From the NCBI GenBank assembly GCA_005888095.1, contig VBKF01000089.1:101898-165897 (forward strand): 64,000 nt of DNA, written 5' to 3'. Below the pieces are notes generated by a model. It saw only the letters and a program-made list of their open reading frames with translations. It ran no database searches and was not told the DNA's origin. This document shows, piece by piece, positions 10,673 to 56,153 of the stretch. Position numbers and translations under genes: made by a program. The number at the start of each line of letters is the position of its first letter. Position 1 is the stretch's first letter. Origin of the DNA: Deltaproteobacteria bacterium. Its GTDB lineage: Bacteria; Desulfobacterota; Binatia; DP-6.

Positions 10673-10832
10673 CAGTGACTCCCTTCTGAAGTGGGTGGTT
10701 CGGCCCCCACGAGCAGCATTCGTACCGCCGGAGCGAGCCCGGAATTGCAGGCCTCGGCTCCTCGAAGTGTGCCGCCCATGCGCCACGAGCGTCACACAGT
10801 TGTGCCTGGCAGCGGCCCCGCCTCGGCGAGAC

Positions 10833-10935
10833 GGAATCTCCGCGCGCGCCGCGCGCGCGGCCGAGCGCAGCGAGCGGGGAGTGAGGACGGGCTCCGCCCG
10901 ACGGGGCGAGGGGCGAGAGCCCCTCGCTGATCTAG
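10833..10935 (-). repeat. Gene-end palindromic element, copy A
   Basis: Read on the reverse strand it begins CTAGATCAGCGAGGGGCTC and ends GCGCGCGGAGATTCC, with nested hairpins in between. It matches the elements at 49767-49874 and 55771-55878. The TAG in its first four bases is the stop codon of the epimerase gene at 10932. It carries a small internal deletion relative to the others (the CCCGCCGGG arm is shortened). Confidence 0.85.
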
Positions 10936-11978
10936 TACGCGCCGCGCAGCGACGGGTGCAGCGTGAGCGCCCGCTGCCGCCGCTCGCTCACGAAGCCGCG
11001 ATCGACGAGCCACGCGACCGTCCGCCGCACCACCTCCCGCGCCGGGCGCCAGGTGTAGCCCAGCTCGCGTGCGGCCTTGGTCGAGTGCATGAAGCCGTAG
11101 CGGCCGGCAAACTCGTCGGCCATGCTGCGATCCATGAGCGGTCGCGTGCCCGTGATCTTGCCCGCGAGCTCGAGCACCGTGGCGAGGGTGCGGACCACCG
11201 GCACCGGCGCCCTCAGCGCCGGCGCGCGCATGCCCGTGAACTCGGCGATCAGCTCGTAGAGCCGAAGCACGGTGACGTTCTCGCCCCCGACGATGTAGCG
11301 CTCCCCGGCGCGTCCCTTTTCGAGCGCAAGGATCGCCCCCTGCGCGACGTCCTCGACGTCGACCACCGGGAAGCCGCCGTCGAAGTAGAAGGGCATGCCG
11401 CGGTTGACGAAGTCGGCCACCTGGCGGACCGACTCCGAGAGCTTGAAGAAGCGCGGCCCGAGGATGAAGCCCGGGTTGATCGCCATGACGGGCAGGATCT
11501 CCCGTGCGCCGATCGCGAACGCTTCCTTCTCGGCCGCCACCTTGCCGCGGAAGTAGTGGGTGTGCGGCGTGGCGGTGTGGTAGGTCTCGTCGAGGATCAC
11601 GTCGGGCGAGTCGGTGAAGCCGATCGTCCCGCCGGTGCTGACGTAGAGCACCTTCTCGACGCCGGCGCGGGCTGCGGCGCCGACGACGTTGCGTGTCCCC
11701 TCCACGCTGGCCGCGATGATGTCGCGCTCGGGGTCGCGCGACCACATGAGGAAGCCCGCGGCGGTGTGGTAGACGCGCCCGCAGCCGGCGACGGCGCGGG
11801 CCGTCGCCTCGGCGTCACGGACGTCGCCGTGCACGACCTCGACGTCGAGGCCGGCGAGTGCCGCCGGGTCGGCGCTGGCGCGGACCATGGCGCGCACGCG
11901 TTCGCCGCGCGCGAGGAGCAGCCGGCAGAGGTTGTTGCCGACGTGGCCGTTGGCGCCGGTGACGAGCGTGGGCTGCAT
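10932..11978 (-). CDS. Extended SDR NAD-dependent epimerase/reductase (HpnA/DFR-like)
   Basis: 348 residues from the ATG at 11978. The Rossmann glycine motif is TGANGHVG at the N-terminus and the catalytic YxxxK is YFRGK. The pattern of VVHGDVRDAEA, YHTAAGF and NVVGAAARAGVEKVLYVST fits the dihydroflavonol-reductase-like extended SDRs that include hopanoid-associated HpnA. It should reduce or epimerise a sugar- or lipid-linked substrate using NAD(P)H; the substrate is not predictable. The stop codon is donated by a dispersed palindromic repeat. No hpn genes are adjacent, so I do not assign hpnA. Confidence 0.85.
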   Translation of the reverse strand: MQPTLVTGANGHVGNNLCRLLLARGERVRAMVRASADPAALAGLDVEVVHGDVRDAEATARAVAGCGRVYHTAAGFLMWSRDPERDIIAASVEGTRNVVGAAARAGVEKVLYVSTGGTIGFTDSPDVILDETYHTATPHTHYFRGKVAAEKEAFAIGAREILPVMAINPGFILGPRFFKLSESVRQVADFVNRGMPFYFDGGFPVVDVEDVAQGAILALEKGRAGERYIVGGENVTVLRLYELIAEFTGMRAPALRAPVPVVRTLATVLELAGKITGTRPLMDRSMADEFAGRYGFMHSTKAARELGYTWRPAREVVRRTVAWLVDRGFVSERRQRALTLHPSLRGAY

Positions 11979-48026: not shown

Positions 48027-49115
48027 GTGAAGATCCTGTACGGCGTCTGCGCGTGGGGCCTCGGGCACGCGACCCGCTCCCTGCCGGTCCTCCGCCGCCT
48101 GGCCGCCGAGCACGAGGTGCTCGTCTACTCCGACGGCGCGGCGCTCGCCTACCTCCGGCGCGAGCTCGGCGCCCGCGCCGCCTTCCTGCCCGCCACCATG
48201 CCCTACCCGAACATCTTCGCCGGCAGCGTGCTCGCGCTCCGCTTCTTCGCCCTCGCGCCGCGCCTCGTCGAAGCCATGCGCGCCGAGTACCGAGAAACGC
48301 AGCGCCTGGTCGCGGCCCACCACGTGGACCGCGTCGTCTCGGACAGCCGCTGGGGCGTGTCGTCGCCCCGCGTCCCATCGCTCTTCATCGCCCACCACCT
48401 GAAGCAACTCGCCCCGCCCCGCTTCGGCGTCGCCGAGCGGCTGACGGAGTGGGTCACCTGGCGCGCGATCCACCGGCGCTACCGCCGCATCCTCGTGCCC
48501 GACGCGGCGGAGGACGGCGGGCTCTCGGGCCGGCTCGCGCACGAGCTCCACTGCTGGGCGCCCTCGCAGCTGGTCTATCTCGGGCTGCTCTCCGACCTGA
48601 CGCCGGGGCAGCGTCCGGCCTCGGATGCCGGCACGAGCCTCGACACGCTGGTCGTGCTCGGCGGTCCCGAGCCGAGCCGCTCGCGCCTCGAGGCGCGCCT
48701 GCTGCCGGATCTTGCCCGCCTTCCCGGGCGGACCGTCGTGCTGCGGGGGCTCCCGGCGGGTGACGGGCCACCGTGGCCGATCGGCGGCGTCGAGGCCCTG
48801 CCGCATGCGAGCCGGGACGAGCGAGACCGCCTGTTCGGCGCCGCGCGCGTGATCGTCGGTCGCTCGGGGTACTCGACGCTCATGGACGTGGCGCAGGTCG
48901 GCGCACGGGCGCTCCTCGTGCCGATGCGCGGCCAGACGGAGCAGGAGTACCTGGCGGCCCGCCTCGCCCGCAAGGGCCTCGTCCATGCCGTCGCCGAGCG
49001 GGACGTCGACCTCGCGCGCGACGTGCCGCTCGCCCGAACGCGCCGGGGGCTCGACGGCTTCGTCCACCCCGGGACCGACGCCGCCGCGCGTGCCGTCGCG
49101 GAGATCCTCGCATGA
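48027..49115 (+). CDS. MurG-like (GT28 type) glycosyltransferase
   Basis: 362 residues from the GTG at 48027, with GGAGG 6 nt upstream. The start VKILYGVCAWGLGHATRSLP holds the GxGH motif of the GT-B acceptor domain. The C-terminal nucleotide-sugar domain contains VIVGRSGYSTLMDVAQVGAR and PMRGQTEQEYLAARLA, as in MurG/GT28 proteins. It overlaps the next glycosyltransferase by 4 bp (ATGA), so the two may build one glycan. Sugar and acceptor unknown. Confidence 0.85.
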   Translation: MKILYGVCAWGLGHATRSLPVLRRLAAEHEVLVYSDGAALAYLRRELGARAAFLPATMPYPNIFAGSVLALRFFALAPRLVEAMRAEYRETQRLVAAHHVDRVVSDSRWGVSSPRVPSLFIAHHLKQLAPPRFGVAERLTEWVTWRAIHRRYRRILVPDAAEDGGLSGRLAHELHCWAPSQLVYLGLLSDLTPGQRPASDAGTSLDTLVVLGGPEPSRSRLEARLLPDLARLPGRTVVLRGLPAGDGPPWPIGGVEALPHASRDERDRLFGAARVIVGRSGYSTLMDVAQVGARALLVPMRGQTEQEYLAARLARKGLVHAVAERDVDLARDVPLARTRRGLDGFVHPGTDAAARAVAEILA

Positions 49116-49762
49116 TCTCGGTCATCATCCCGGCGCACGACGAGGAACGCTACGTCGGCCCGACCATCGCGGCGCTGTGTGCCGCGACGCGGTTCGAGGT
49201 CCTGGTCGTGGCCAACGCCTGCAGCGACCGGACGGCCGAGGTCGCACGCGCGCACGGCGCGCGGGTCCTCTCGACGCCCGTCCGCGGCGTGTCCCACGCC
49301 CGCAACCTCGGCGCCCGCGCCAGCGGCGGCGAAGTGCTCGTCTTCCTCGACGCCGACACGGCGCTCCCGCCCGCCGCGCTCGACGCGATCGCGGCCGCGG
49401 TCCCGGCACGCGCCGACTACGGCACCTGCCGCATCCGTCCCGATCGAACGACCCTTCCCGCCGTCCTGACGGCCACCGTCCTCGCCTGGGGCCACCGCCT
49501 GGCGGGCACCTCGCTCGGCATCCTCTTCTGCACGCGCGCGCTCTTCGAACGGGCAGGCGCCTTCGACGAGCGCCTGCACGCCGGCGAGGACAACGACCTG
49601 AACGCCCGCTTCCGCCGCCTCGGGGCCCGGCGCATCTACCTCGGCCAGGTCGCCGCCTACACGTCGATGCGCCGCTTCGAGCGTCTCGGCTACGTCCGCG
49701 TCCACCTCGCCTGGCTCCGCGGCTACTTCCGCCCGCCCGCCGAGTACGAGGTGATCCGCTAG
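49112..49762 (+). CDS. Family 2 glycosyltransferase
   Basis: 216 residues from the ATG at 49112. The GT-A fold is clear: MISVIIPAHDEERYVGPTIA, VVANACSDRT, the DXD-type motif FLDADT, and the ED acceptor motif AGEDNDLNARF. No transmembrane helix, so a soluble or peripheral enzyme. It is coupled to the GT28-type gene and followed 4 bp after its stop by a dispersed palindromic repeat. Confidence 0.9.
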   Translation: MISVIIPAHDEERYVGPTIAALCAATRFEVLVVANACSDRTAEVARAHGARVLSTPVRGVSHARNLGARASGGEVLVFLDADTALPPAALDAIAAAVPARADYGTCRIRPDRTTLPAVLTATVLAWGHRLAGTSLGILFCTRALFERAGAFDERLHAGEDNDLNARFRRLGARRIYLGQVAAYTSMRRFERLGYVRVHLAWLRGYFRPPAEYEVIR

Positions 49763-49766
49763 CTGG

Positions 49767-49874
49767 CTAGATCAGCGAGGGGCTCCGCCCCTCGCCCCGG
49801 CGGGCAAAGCCCGCCGGGTCCTCACTCCCCGCTCGCTGCGCTCGGCCGCGCGCGCGGCGCGCGCGGAGATTCCA
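49767..49874 (+). repeat. Gene-end palindromic element, copy B
   Basis: Begins CTAGATCAGCGAGGGGCTCC and ends GAGATTCCA. Contains GCGAGGGGC-TCC-GCCCCTCGC and CGGCGGGC-AAA-GCCCGCCG hairpins, then a CG-alternating palindrome (CGCGCGCGGCGCGCGCG). Lies just after the GT2 stop codon. Confidence 0.88.
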
Positions 49875-49932
49875 GGTCGAGTCGAGCCGCTGCCGTTCGC
49901 GGGAGAGGGGCCACCCGGCTCCCGCCGCGGCA

Positions 49933-53791: not shown

Positions 53792-55774
53792 ATGAAGGCC
53801 GTGCTCGGCCTGCGGGACGCCGTCGAGAGCGACGGCCGCCACGTCCGGCTCATCGGGCTCGCGGTCGTGACGGGCATCCTCGGGGCGGTGGGCAACGTCG
53901 TCTTCCGGGAGGCGATCAGAGGCGCCACCTGGCTCTTCCAGGGCCGGCTCGCACCGCTCGGGCGCCCGGGGATCCCGCTGGCGCTCGTTGCCGGCGGGCT
54001 CGCCCTCCTCTGCCTCGACCGGTTCTTCCCCGGCGAGGTGCTCGGCTACGGCTTCCCGCGCTTCCTCGAGATGCTCCACCTGCACGGGGCGAGCGTGAAG
54101 CGGCGGTGGATGGTCGTGAAGACGCTCGGGGCCGCGATCTCGCTCGGCGCCGGCGCCGCCGTCGGCCGCGAAGGACCGATCGCGCAGATCGGCGGCTCGA
54201 TCGGCGCGGCGGTCGCGCGCCTCGGACGCCTCGCCGCCGAAGAGCGCAAGGTGCTGATCGCCTGCGGCGCGGGCGCGGGCATCGCCACGACGTTCAACGC
54301 GCCGCTGGGCGGCCTGCTCTTCGCGCAGGAGATCGTGCTGCTCGGCGAGGCGCATCTCGCGAACTTCAGCCTGATCGTCGTCGCCACCACGACCGCCGTG
54401 ATCGTCGCGCGCGGGCTCCTCGGCAACGAGCCGGTCTTTCACGTCATGCCGTTCGAGCTCGACAGCTACTGGGAGTGTCTGACCTACGGCGTGCTCGGCG
54501 TGGTGCTCGGCCTGCTGGCGGTCGGCTACATCCGCTTCTTCCACGCGGTCGCCGCGCGTGTACGTCGGAGCCCATGGCCGCGACCGGTGCTCCTCCTGGT
54601 CGGGCTCGCGCTGGTCGGCCTCCTCGACGTGGCGGTGCCGGGGAACGTCTCGGACGGCTACCCGGTCGTCGACCAGGCGCTCGCCGGTCGCCTGGCGCCG
54701 GGTCACATGGCCGTGCTCGCGGCCGCGAAGGTCGCCGGCAGCAGCCTCTCGCTCGGCTGCGGCGCGCCGGGCGGCGTCTTCGGCCCCATCTTCTTCATCG
54801 GGGCGATGACCGGCGGCGCCTTCCGCGGGCTGTCGGCGCTCGTCCTGCCCGGACTCACCGGCCCGCGCGGGTCCTACGCGCTCGTCGGCCTGGGCGCCTT
54901 CCTCGCCGCCACCACGCACGCGCCGCTGACCGCCATCTTCCTGCTCTTCGAGATGACGCAGAACTACACGGTCACCGTCCCGGCGCTGATCACCGCGATC
55001 GTCGGGCTGACGGTCGCCACCCGGCTCGAGCCGGAGTCGATCGACACCCTGGGGCTCACCGCCGAGGGCAAGAGCCTGCACCCGACGACCGAGCGCCAGG
55101 TGCTCGACCGCATCCCCGTGGCCGCGGTGTACCACCGCGAGGCGGAGACGATCCCCGAGCGGGCGACGCTCCCGGAGGTGCTCCGCATCGTCGCCGGCAG
55201 CCGGAGCGCCACCTTCCCCGTGCTAGACGACGCGGGCGAGCTGGTGGGGGTGCTCGCCTTCGGCGCGCTGCGCTCGCTCCTGCTCGAGGAAGACCTCGGC
55301 CCGCTCGTGGTCGCTCGCGACCTCTGCGAGCCTCGCTTCGCCAAGCTCAGCCCGGAGGCGAGCCTCGGCGACGCGTTCCGGCTCCTCGAGGGCGAAGGAG
55401 TCGAGGAGCTGCCCGTCGTCGATCCCGCGAACCCGAGCCGGCTTCTCGGCCTCCTCTCCCGCGCCGACCTGATCGCCGCCTACAACCGGACCGTCGCGGC
55501 GCTCGGCGCGCTGCCGGCCTCCGCGCGTCCCGGGCCCCAGTGGGCGGACTCCTACCGGGTGCTGGTCGTCTCGGCGCCGCGCACCTGGGTGGGGCGGTCG
55601 CTGCGCGAGATCGACTGCCGCGCGCGCCACGGCGTCGCCGTCCTCGCGGTACAGCCGGGGGGACGGGTCGAGCCCGGGTACGAGCTGCCCGATCCGGACC
55701 GTCCGTTCGCCGCGCACGACACGGTGGTGCTCGCCGGGACGGCCGACGGGCTGCGCGCCGCGCAGGCTTTCTAG
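53792..55774 (+). CDS. ClC chloride channel/antiporter with CBS pair and TrkA-C domain
   Basis: 660 residues. The membrane part has AVGREGPIAQIGGSI with gating Glu127, CGAPGGVFGPIFFIG, and FLAATTHAPLTAIFLLFEMT, the ClC pore motifs. A CBS pair follows (about 455-585) and ends in a TrkA-C-like domain (about 590-660, VGRSLREIDCRARHGVAVLA). CBS and TrkA-C parts usually bind nucleotides and gate transport. The start ATG lies 10 bp after the SnoaL gene. The stop codon TAG belongs to a dispersed palindromic repeat. Confidence 0.93.
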   Translation: MKAVLGLRDAVESDGRHVRLIGLAVVTGILGAVGNVVFREAIRGATWLFQGRLAPLGRPGIPLALVAGGLALLCLDRFFPGEVLGYGFPRFLEMLHLHGASVKRRWMVVKTLGAAISLGAGAAVGREGPIAQIGGSIGAAVARLGRLAAEERKVLIACGAGAGIATTFNAPLGGLLFAQEIVLLGEAHLANFSLIVVATTTAVIVARGLLGNEPVFHVMPFELDSYWECLTYGVLGVVLGLLAVGYIRFFHAVAARVRRSPWPRPVLLLVGLALVGLLDVAVPGNVSDGYPVVDQALAGRLAPGHMAVLAAAKVAGSSLSLGCGAPGGVFGPIFFIGAMTGGAFRGLSALVLPGLTGPRGSYALVGLGAFLAATTHAPLTAIFLLFEMTQNYTVTVPALITAIVGLTVATRLEPESIDTLGLTAEGKSLHPTTERQVLDRIPVAAVYHREAETIPERATLPEVLRIVAGSRSATFPVLDDAGELVGVLAFGALRSLLLEEDLGPLVVARDLCEPRFAKLSPEASLGDAFRLLEGEGVEELPVVDPANPSRLLGLLSRADLIAAYNRTVAALGALPASARPGPQWADSYRVLVVSAPRTWVGRSLREIDCRARHGVAVLAVQPGGRVEPGYELPDPDRPFAAHDTVVLAGTADGLRAAQAF

Positions 55775-55878
55775 ATCAGCGAGGGGCTCCGCCCCTCGCC
55801 CCGTCGGGCGAAGCCCGCCGGGTCCTCACTCCCCGCTCGCTTCGCTCGGCCGCGCGCGCGGCGCGCGCGGAGATTCCA
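55771..55878 (+). repeat. Gene-end palindromic element, copy C
   Basis: Begins CTAGATCAGCGAGGGGCTCC, ends GAGATTCCA, with the same three hairpin blocks as copy B. The ClC stop codon is its TAG. Nearly identical to copy B over its full length. Confidence 0.88.
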
Positions 55879-55893
55879 TCTCGAGTGGAGCGC

Positions 55894-56094
55894 CTAGCTC
55901 GCCGCGGCGCGCTTGCGGTTCTTGGAGCCAGGAGGGCGGCCCGGGCCGCGCCGGCCGCGGCGCCGTCGCCGCCGCCGCGTGGCGGTCTTCCCGCCTCTGC
56001 CGCTCGCTCCGCCGAGAAGGCCCGCTATCGCGTGACTGATCTCCTGACGGACGAGGTCTCGGATCACGGTGATCAGACTCTTCTGGCGCGGCAT
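55894..56094 (-). CDS. Small basic AT-hook-like DNA-binding protein
   Basis: 66 residues. The ATG has an excellent AAGGAGGT ribosome site 6 nt upstream. The N-terminal half forms an amphipathic helix (LITVIRDLVRQEISHAIAGL), and the rest is Arg-rich with RRGPGRPPGSKNRKR, an AT-hook core (GRP flanked by basic residues) as in H1/HMGA-like bacterial proteins. It could be a nucleoid-associated protein, the helix giving dimerisation. Its 3' end is about 15 bp from repeat copy C. Confidence 0.75.
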   Translation of the reverse strand: MPRQKSLITVIRDLVRQEISHAIAGLLGGASGRGGKTATRRRRRRRGRRGPGRPPGSKNRKRAAAS

Positions 56095-56153
56095 ACCGCT
56101 ACCTCCTTGGGAAGAGGCCTGCTCCTACTCCAAGCTCTCCGCCGTGGCAAGAC

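Follow-up and report, generated by a model that had tools for sequence, protein, structure and literature searches.

One account of REPs gives their usual number as more than 100 copies and mentions REPs very near, or directly downstream of, the stop codons of rayt genes (PMC2817692). A survey that covers GTAG REPs remarks that their termini often supply a TAG stop to flanking ORFs, and it also describes TIRYT/TIRtron systems, in which longer and sometimes self-complementary terminal repeats are tied to tyrosine transposases (PMC3733652). The enzymes known as TnpAREP have been reported to cleave at a CT dinucleotide beside hairpins, and one of them also at CA (PMC8266576). Among the titles and abstract openings that searches of the open-licence PMC literature listed, none reports elements that split a stop codon and rebuild it.

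The mobile hairpin element family described here, which sits at gene stops, is a variant among such REP/MITE-like repeats. It was recognized in a window of 64,000 nucleotides (the whole stretch of DNA that was analysed), where an earlier note had recorded three copies of a dispersed, apparently mobile palindrome at gene 3′ ends and in gene orientation. That description is supported, and relatives have sites without the element. The best explanation, and one that we consider reasonably probable, is a REP/MITE-like hairpin element whose left end in most copies lies inside a gene stop, most likely having inserted between the T and two purines, with the element's AG rebuilding TAG. Throughout, G000 denotes the window's own genome, that of a soil bacterium (5.46 Mb in 271 contigs), G003 and G004 are genomes of the same genus, and G001, G002, G005 and G006 are further genomes compared.

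Copies in the Window and Their Host Genes

All three copies recorded in the earlier note are present, and the gene identities that it proposed (epimerase, GT2 and ClC) are confirmed by Pfam matches. The copies, here assigned to family A, and their host genes are as follows.

53792..55774, + strand: ClC channel gene with CBS and TrkA_C domains (PF00654, Voltage_CLC; PF00571; PF02080), the last two stop bases of which belong to the element
55772-55774, + strand: TAG stop of the ClC gene, formed by the host T at 55772 and the element's AG
55773..55895, + strand: family A copy at the ClC gene, 5'-AGATCAGCG...GAGCGCCT-3'
48773..49762, + strand: family 2 glycosyltransferase (GT2) gene (PF00535, Glycos_transf_2); the gene caller has it start at 49112 and end at 49762
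49769..49891, + strand: family A copy past the GT2 gene, whose own TAG (49760-49762) lies 6 nt before the element
10932..11978, - strand: NAD-dependent epimerase gene (PF01370, Epimerase)
10817..10933, - strand: family A copy at the epimerase gene, splitting the TAG stop (10934-10932) as T/AG, where a slash here and below marks the edge of the element; its right end is eroded and 10817 is approximate

The claim that all three copies lie at a stop codon holds for the epimerase and ClC genes, where the stop itself is split, and fails for GT2, where the copy starts beyond the TAG. Element-free versions of the ClC and GT2 loci are found in G004 (L123) and G003 (L100), respectively.

Extent and Distribution of Family A

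A whole-genome search with the 108-bp sequence proposed earlier, in which 40 of 185 candidates were scored, found at least 32 family A copies in G000 with identities of 91-100%. When the copies were aligned with their flanks, the length of 108 bp proved too short: conservation continues beyond GAGATTCC up to ...GAGCTCCT, and therefore the ClC copy occupies 55773-55895 and the unit is about 123 bp. The unit ends are 5'-AGATCAGCGAGGGG ... GGAGATTCCATCTCGAGTCGAGCTCCT-3', and terminal inverted repeats are not evident. G003 and G004 carry related subfamilies that contribute 26 further placements (3 and 23, one short partial match among the 24 in G004 being left out), for a total of 58 with G000; the G004 subfamilies differ in the sequence that follows the boundary (AGATCAGCG, AGTCTACGCG or AGCTCACGAGGGG). 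At the G004 loci L133 and L138 there are two adjoining element copies, one pair inverted and one in tandem, which recall REP doublets.

Full-length family A was found only in the three same-genus genomes among the seven of its taxonomic family, and among the genomes searched, both family A and the family D introduced below are confined to that one family. An exact 21-base core pattern, run against a collection of 84,980 species from which the window's own genome may be absent, matched only two soil assemblies, both labelled Deltaproteobacteria, and Rfam gave no match in the window at its gathering score. Because the copies occur, with differing flanks, in three assemblies of the same genus, and because orthologous sites without the element exist, the assembly or adapter artefact against which the earlier note had cautioned is unlikely.

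Position of the Copies at Stop Codons

Gene ends were taken from a gene caller that relies on codon usage and was trained on the window, used in place of standard annotation. Where elements were taken out of their loci computationally, the right ends used were a few bases off. In G000, the stop of the left-hand gene is cut exactly at the element boundary in 22 of 32 copies and lies within 15 nt in 28 of 32. By a second criterion, which asks whether the left end splits the stop between its T and the next two bases, exact splits number 23 of 32 in G000, 1 of 3 in G003 and 15 of 23 in G004. Of all 58 placements, 39 have a T/AG or T/AA boundary that coincides exactly with a gene stop and 19 are not exact splits; a stop triplet T/NN is found at the boundary in 52 of 58, whether or not it ends the best-scoring frame. 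The 39 split stops consist of 28 TAG, 11 TAA and no TGA, as compared to 36 TAG, 67 TGA and 4 TAA among 107 called G000 genes (Fisher P 1.8e-13).

Family D and Reduced Forms

The standard form of a second family, D, measures 305 bp and is a near-perfect foldback. Its inverted ends read AGGAGCGCGACCCAAGA, both ends carry a hairpin, the terminal inverted repeats are perfect, and the flanks mostly read ct/../ag.

L244:786-1090 (G000:C70:17185-17489): family D copy, 305 bp, 5'-AG...CT-3' ends

Solo-hairpin forms of family D are about 36-43 bp long. Palindromes of 36-43 bp also stand directly between CTAG ends at L189 (G000:C94:55692-55729) and at L307, L308, L309 and L311 (G001), and these are possibly reduced D forms. 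The D end pattern has 55 matches in G000, 26 in G003 and 31 in G004, with none in the control. In these three genomes, 20 of 58 left ends are exactly at stops, as are 33 of 72 right ends, both denominators being inflated by internal hairpins. For G001, where 20 stretches were hand-chosen among 46 pattern matches, inspection by eye found the end tetramer to be a gene stop on at least one side in 18 of 21 elements and on both sides in four. A class-level search, scoring five candidates per genome, detected D-like sequence in 6 of 145 genomes, all from the taxonomic family of G000 (six of its seven members), and in none of the 138 others. Four gene ends occupied at L068, L089, L135 and L017 hold a different element, of family D, at the orthologous position in another species (L068/L185/L189, L089/L180, L135/L203 and L017/L105), which suggests recurrent insertion at the same gene ends.

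Orthologous Sites and the Probable Rebuilding of Stops

For 18 of the 32 G000 copies, the left flank was compared with G003 and G004, and 16 of 22 G004 flanks were compared with G000 and G003, yielding usable orthologs at 29 loci (16 from G000 and 13 from G004). The empty sites that the earlier note had suggested seeking in related genomes were found: at 22 of the 29 loci, the host protein and at least one ortholog, from a relative that lacks that element, terminate at the same codon. By this evidence, the element appears to be mobile. Among 51 ortholog pairs, 37 have the same end codon; this set includes L009 and L134, which were read in the wrong frame, L098, which carries the same insertion, and L105, L180, L185, L189 and L203, which hold D-type elements and are not empty sites. 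The L022 copy is common to G000 and G003, and in G003, L061 appears to correspond to L008.

The orthologs end in TAG (26), TGA (17) or TAA (8), and the occupied genes in TAG (23) or TAA (6) and never in TGA. At seven loci, with L134 left out of the count, every readable ortholog has TGA and the occupied gene has TAG or TAA; two of the seven, L018 and L133a, have one ortholog each, ending two and one codons further on. At L003, the element-free G003 site reads AACTAGCTTGC and the filled site AACT/AG...CGT/AGCTTGCC. The clearest case is L087 in G004, where the orthologs read GTG TGA and GTC TGA and the filled site reads GTCT/AG...CCT/GATGGCGC, such that the displaced GA of the old TGA stays beyond the element; the right flank GATGGCGC matches the GAATGGCCC of the G000 ortholog, the start of the next gene, save for one A and one substitution. 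Two loci agree with L087, namely L024, with TGA in both orthologs and CCT/GG on the right, and L019, with one TGA and one TAA ortholog and CCT/GA on the right. At L083 and L137, the right junctions of which are unreadable, both orthologs end in TGA and the occupied gene ends in TAA. The fit is poor at L026, where both orthologs have TGA and the occupied gene TAA and a right side of CCT/AG implies TAG at the time of insertion, and at L017, where the right side is CCT/GA and the orthologs have TAG and TAA. From these junctions, it appears likely that a copy jumped in after the first base of the stop, its own first two bases rebuilding the codon and leaving the protein unchanged. This split-and-rebuild rule rests on few decisive loci, L087 above all, with most others consistent.

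Predicted Hairpins

Folding of the ClC copy (55768-55900) gave an MFE of -74.2 kcal/mol, with a z of -3.16 relative to 200 shuffles, and three predicted hairpins.

55779..55799, + strand: hairpin 1, GCGAGGGGC-TCC-GCCCCTCGC, in the fold of the ClC copy
55800..55822, + strand: hairpin 2, CCCG.CGGGC-GAA-GCCCG.CGGG, in the single-copy fold only, the stretch being paired otherwise in the consensus fold
55850..55870, + strand: hairpin 3, the palindrome CCGCGCGCGCGGCGCGCGCGG, in both the single-copy and consensus folds

The earlier note had ascribed three hairpin blocks to each copy; they are predicted in the ClC copy, which is the one that was folded singly. In a consensus fold of 28 aligned placements of the 58, 6 of 29 pairs are changed on both sides, each in three sequences and all within hairpin 1, where the double changes could stem from differences between subfamilies or from a shift of register; covariation contributes little, -0.73 of -44.66 kcal/mol.

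Cut Site and Candidate Transposases

The element junctions are consistent with CT, and many targets read CTAG on both sides. Such targets fit a CT cut, a CTAG duplication or a TA duplication alike, and it is the few TGA-type sites that discriminate. Among 13 placements with T instead of C before the boundary T, nine keep T at the right end, and in seven of these nine that T is preceded by C; at L029 and L079 it is preceded by T, as expected from a longer duplication. A 4-bp CTAG duplication as a general rule is disfavoured by the right-hand C in those seven placements and by the TGA sites. It was also considered that the element might end in TGA(C), since L017, L019 and L061 all show CCT/GAC; the TGA orthologs of L087 speak against this, and CCT/GAC at L017 and L061 fits either an element end or a target TGA.

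Four transposase classes were tested in G000 (Y1, DDE_3, IS110-type and DDE_Tnp_1), and only Y1 was found, the other three having no match. Y1_Tnp, which covers IS200-like enzymes including RAYT, has seven matches in G000 (six of them above the Pfam cut-off), five in G003, six in G004, one in G002 and two in G006, with none in G001 and G005 even though both carry D-type copies; DDE_3 has one match in G003 and four in G004. Two sampled Y1 proteins score 40.7 and 35.4, under the NCBIfam RAYT cut-off of 80. RAYT-like Y1_Tnp matches without linked repeats are found in G000 at, for example, L160:1809-2486 and L165:1788-2489.

The search for a RAYT gene suggested earlier thus had a divided outcome, in that Y1 matches exist and neither element is found at 20 fetched Y1 loci of the family. 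At those loci, matches to family A do not exceed 36 nt (best E 0.002), and family D has one 37-nt match (E 0.005). End motifs at 15 of the 20 are scattered and inexact, apart from two bare AGCGAGGGG 9-mers, and flanking inverted repeats at 13 of them amount to 11-15 nt matches in seven. A RAYT physically linked to the element therefore receives no support from the 20 Y1 loci without A or D and the 13 without clear inverted repeats. Likewise, six DDE_3 loci of the relatives show no exact element end, only inexact motif matches, and no autonomous copy with D ends was seen by BLAST at four unpaired G000 end regions (L239, L241, L242 and L243) or in 20 G001 stretches. The leading candidate for the mover would nevertheless be a Y1 enzyme working in trans, because published TnpAREP enzymes cut CT beside hairpins, which fits the junctions. 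Against it speak the D copies in G001 and G005, two genomes without a Y1 match, unless these copies, which are diverged, represent relics, as they may.

Alternative Explanations

Several accounts of why the copies lie at gene ends can be envisioned. CTAG is about nine-fold rarer in the window than base composition predicts (17 versus 158 expected), and in 132.6 kb of G000 the 38 occurrences comprise 10 stops, 19 non-coding sites, 5 coding sites and 4 within elements. As 10 of the 29 non-coding or stop sites are stops, an element that prefers CTAG would be expected, once purifying selection had acted, at a stop in about one case in three. In addition, gaps between genes average from 86 nt (G000) to about 100 nt, and chance within the actual gaps would put 4.8-8.3 of 20 usable G000 loci at a stop, depending on the motif assumed. 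Purifying selection alone, with random insertion at CT or CTAG and survival of only the harmless copies, is thus a possibility to be taken seriously, if a doubtful one: the observed 23 of 32 exact copies are about two-fold above the CTAG-based expectation (P 1.8e-5, p = 10/29), and 14 of the same 20 loci are exact by the second criterion, in a partial control for which 12 of 32 G000 and 12 of 26 G003/G004 placements were unusable. Part of the gene-end bias is thus accounted for by the scarcity of CTAG, the tight gaps and purifying selection, and on these numbers a roughly two-fold excess remains. The earlier note's judgement that the arrangement exceeds chance is upheld. The gene-end location that it described is fixed to the base, after the T of the stop and before its RR, and is owed in part to the rarity of CTAG and to its lying mostly outside coding sequence. 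The element may act as a transcription terminator. It is, however, rather unlikely that it is kept at stops mainly as a (bidirectional) terminator between tight or convergent genes, with insertion itself unspecific. The strong hairpins predicted in single-copy and consensus folds, the stop of a convergent gene no more than 15 nt from the right end (13 of 32 G000 copies) and the occupation of the same gene ends by different families in different species are all in keeping with such a role, but termination would not require the cut in the stop codon to fall at one particular base, the L087 copy directly precedes the start of a downstream same-direction gene, and the U-tract pattern of a hairpin followed by a T run was absent from the one stretch scanned (55600-56100). 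More improbable still is that these are family-wide mobile hairpins whose machinery homes to stops (T^RR of TAG, TGA and TAA) and whose 5'-AG...CT-3' ends evolved to rebuild a stop on either strand; if homing were true, the element would have a self-made safe harbour in a compact genome.

Other accounts concern the chemistry of insertion. MITEs of the IS630 type duplicate TA within a CTAG target, and a DDE-type MITE, with either this TA duplication or a 4-bp CTAG duplication, would be found at gene ends simply because the rare CTAG is found there. The many targets with CTAG on both sides, the perfect terminal inverted repeats and mostly ct/../ag flanks of family D, the depletion of CTAG in the window and the T on both sides at L029 and L079 all suit such an element. 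We nonetheless regard it as unlikely, given the GA or GG right flanks at L087, L024 and L019, where at least one ortholog has TGA, the right-hand C in seven of nine left-T placements, and the lack of DDE_3 and DDE_Tnp_1 matches in G000. Site-specific recombination by a serine recombinase or an IS110-like enzyme can be built on a 2-bp core, and CT at both junctions with no longer duplication has the form that a CT core would give; by eye, however, the flanks show no similarity past the core, and IS110-type matches are absent from G000, so that this reading is very improbable.

Proposed Mechanism and Its Meaning

Returning to the favoured reading of a hairpin element that enters and rebuilds stops, insertion would occur at (C)T^RR, between the T of the stop and the two purines that follow, and the element's own first bases, AG, would rebuild a TAG stop. 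Cleavage would follow (C)T, and nothing of the target beyond CT would be duplicated. The element would be moved in trans, the most likely agents being the IS200-like Y1 (RAYT-like) transposases of the genus, which would cut single-stranded DNA beside hairpins. That copies are kept at gene ends could then be explained by CTAG-like sites that are rare and mostly non-coding, by short gaps, and by the fact that insertion is harmless because the stop is rebuilt.

This offers a base-level picture of how a repeat may multiply harmlessly where genes are densely packed: it enters a stop codon and then restores it. A published remark made in passing, that REP ends often supply TAG stops, becomes an insertion rule that can be tested with empty sites, and a sharp test is offered of whether location at stop codons comes from targeting or from selection. 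There is also a warning here, in that mobile DNA can set stop-codon use and 3′ ends in such genomes.

Comparison with Known Systems

The IS630-type MITEs share the preference for CTAG and, in family D, the terminal inverted repeats; they differ in that TGA-type targets here lack a TA duplication and G000 has no DDE_3 match. With the GTAG REPs and REPtrons, the element shares a dispersed palindromic nature and a location at gene 3′ ends and between convergent genes, as well as TAG stops derived from repeat termini, as far as these are described in the survey (PMC3733652), and its junctions are consistent with the CT cleavage reported for TnpAREP (PMC8266576). It departs from them in size, being 123 bp long with three hairpins, or 305 bp as a foldback, as opposed to a unit of 20-40 bp, in having a CTAG-type boundary in place of GTAG at one end, and, unlike REPtrons, in the lack of a RAYT flanked by elements at the 20 fetched Y1 loci. 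The terminal repeats of family D may be compared with the TIRtron repeats of the same survey (PMC3733652), in contrast to which no clear TIRs surround the 13 Y1 genes checked. The element is palindromic and mostly extragenic, at no fewer than 32 copies as against the >100 usual for REPs in the account cited above (PMC2817692), and family D is similar to REPINs (PMC3116915) in its inverted hairpin ends around a spacer.
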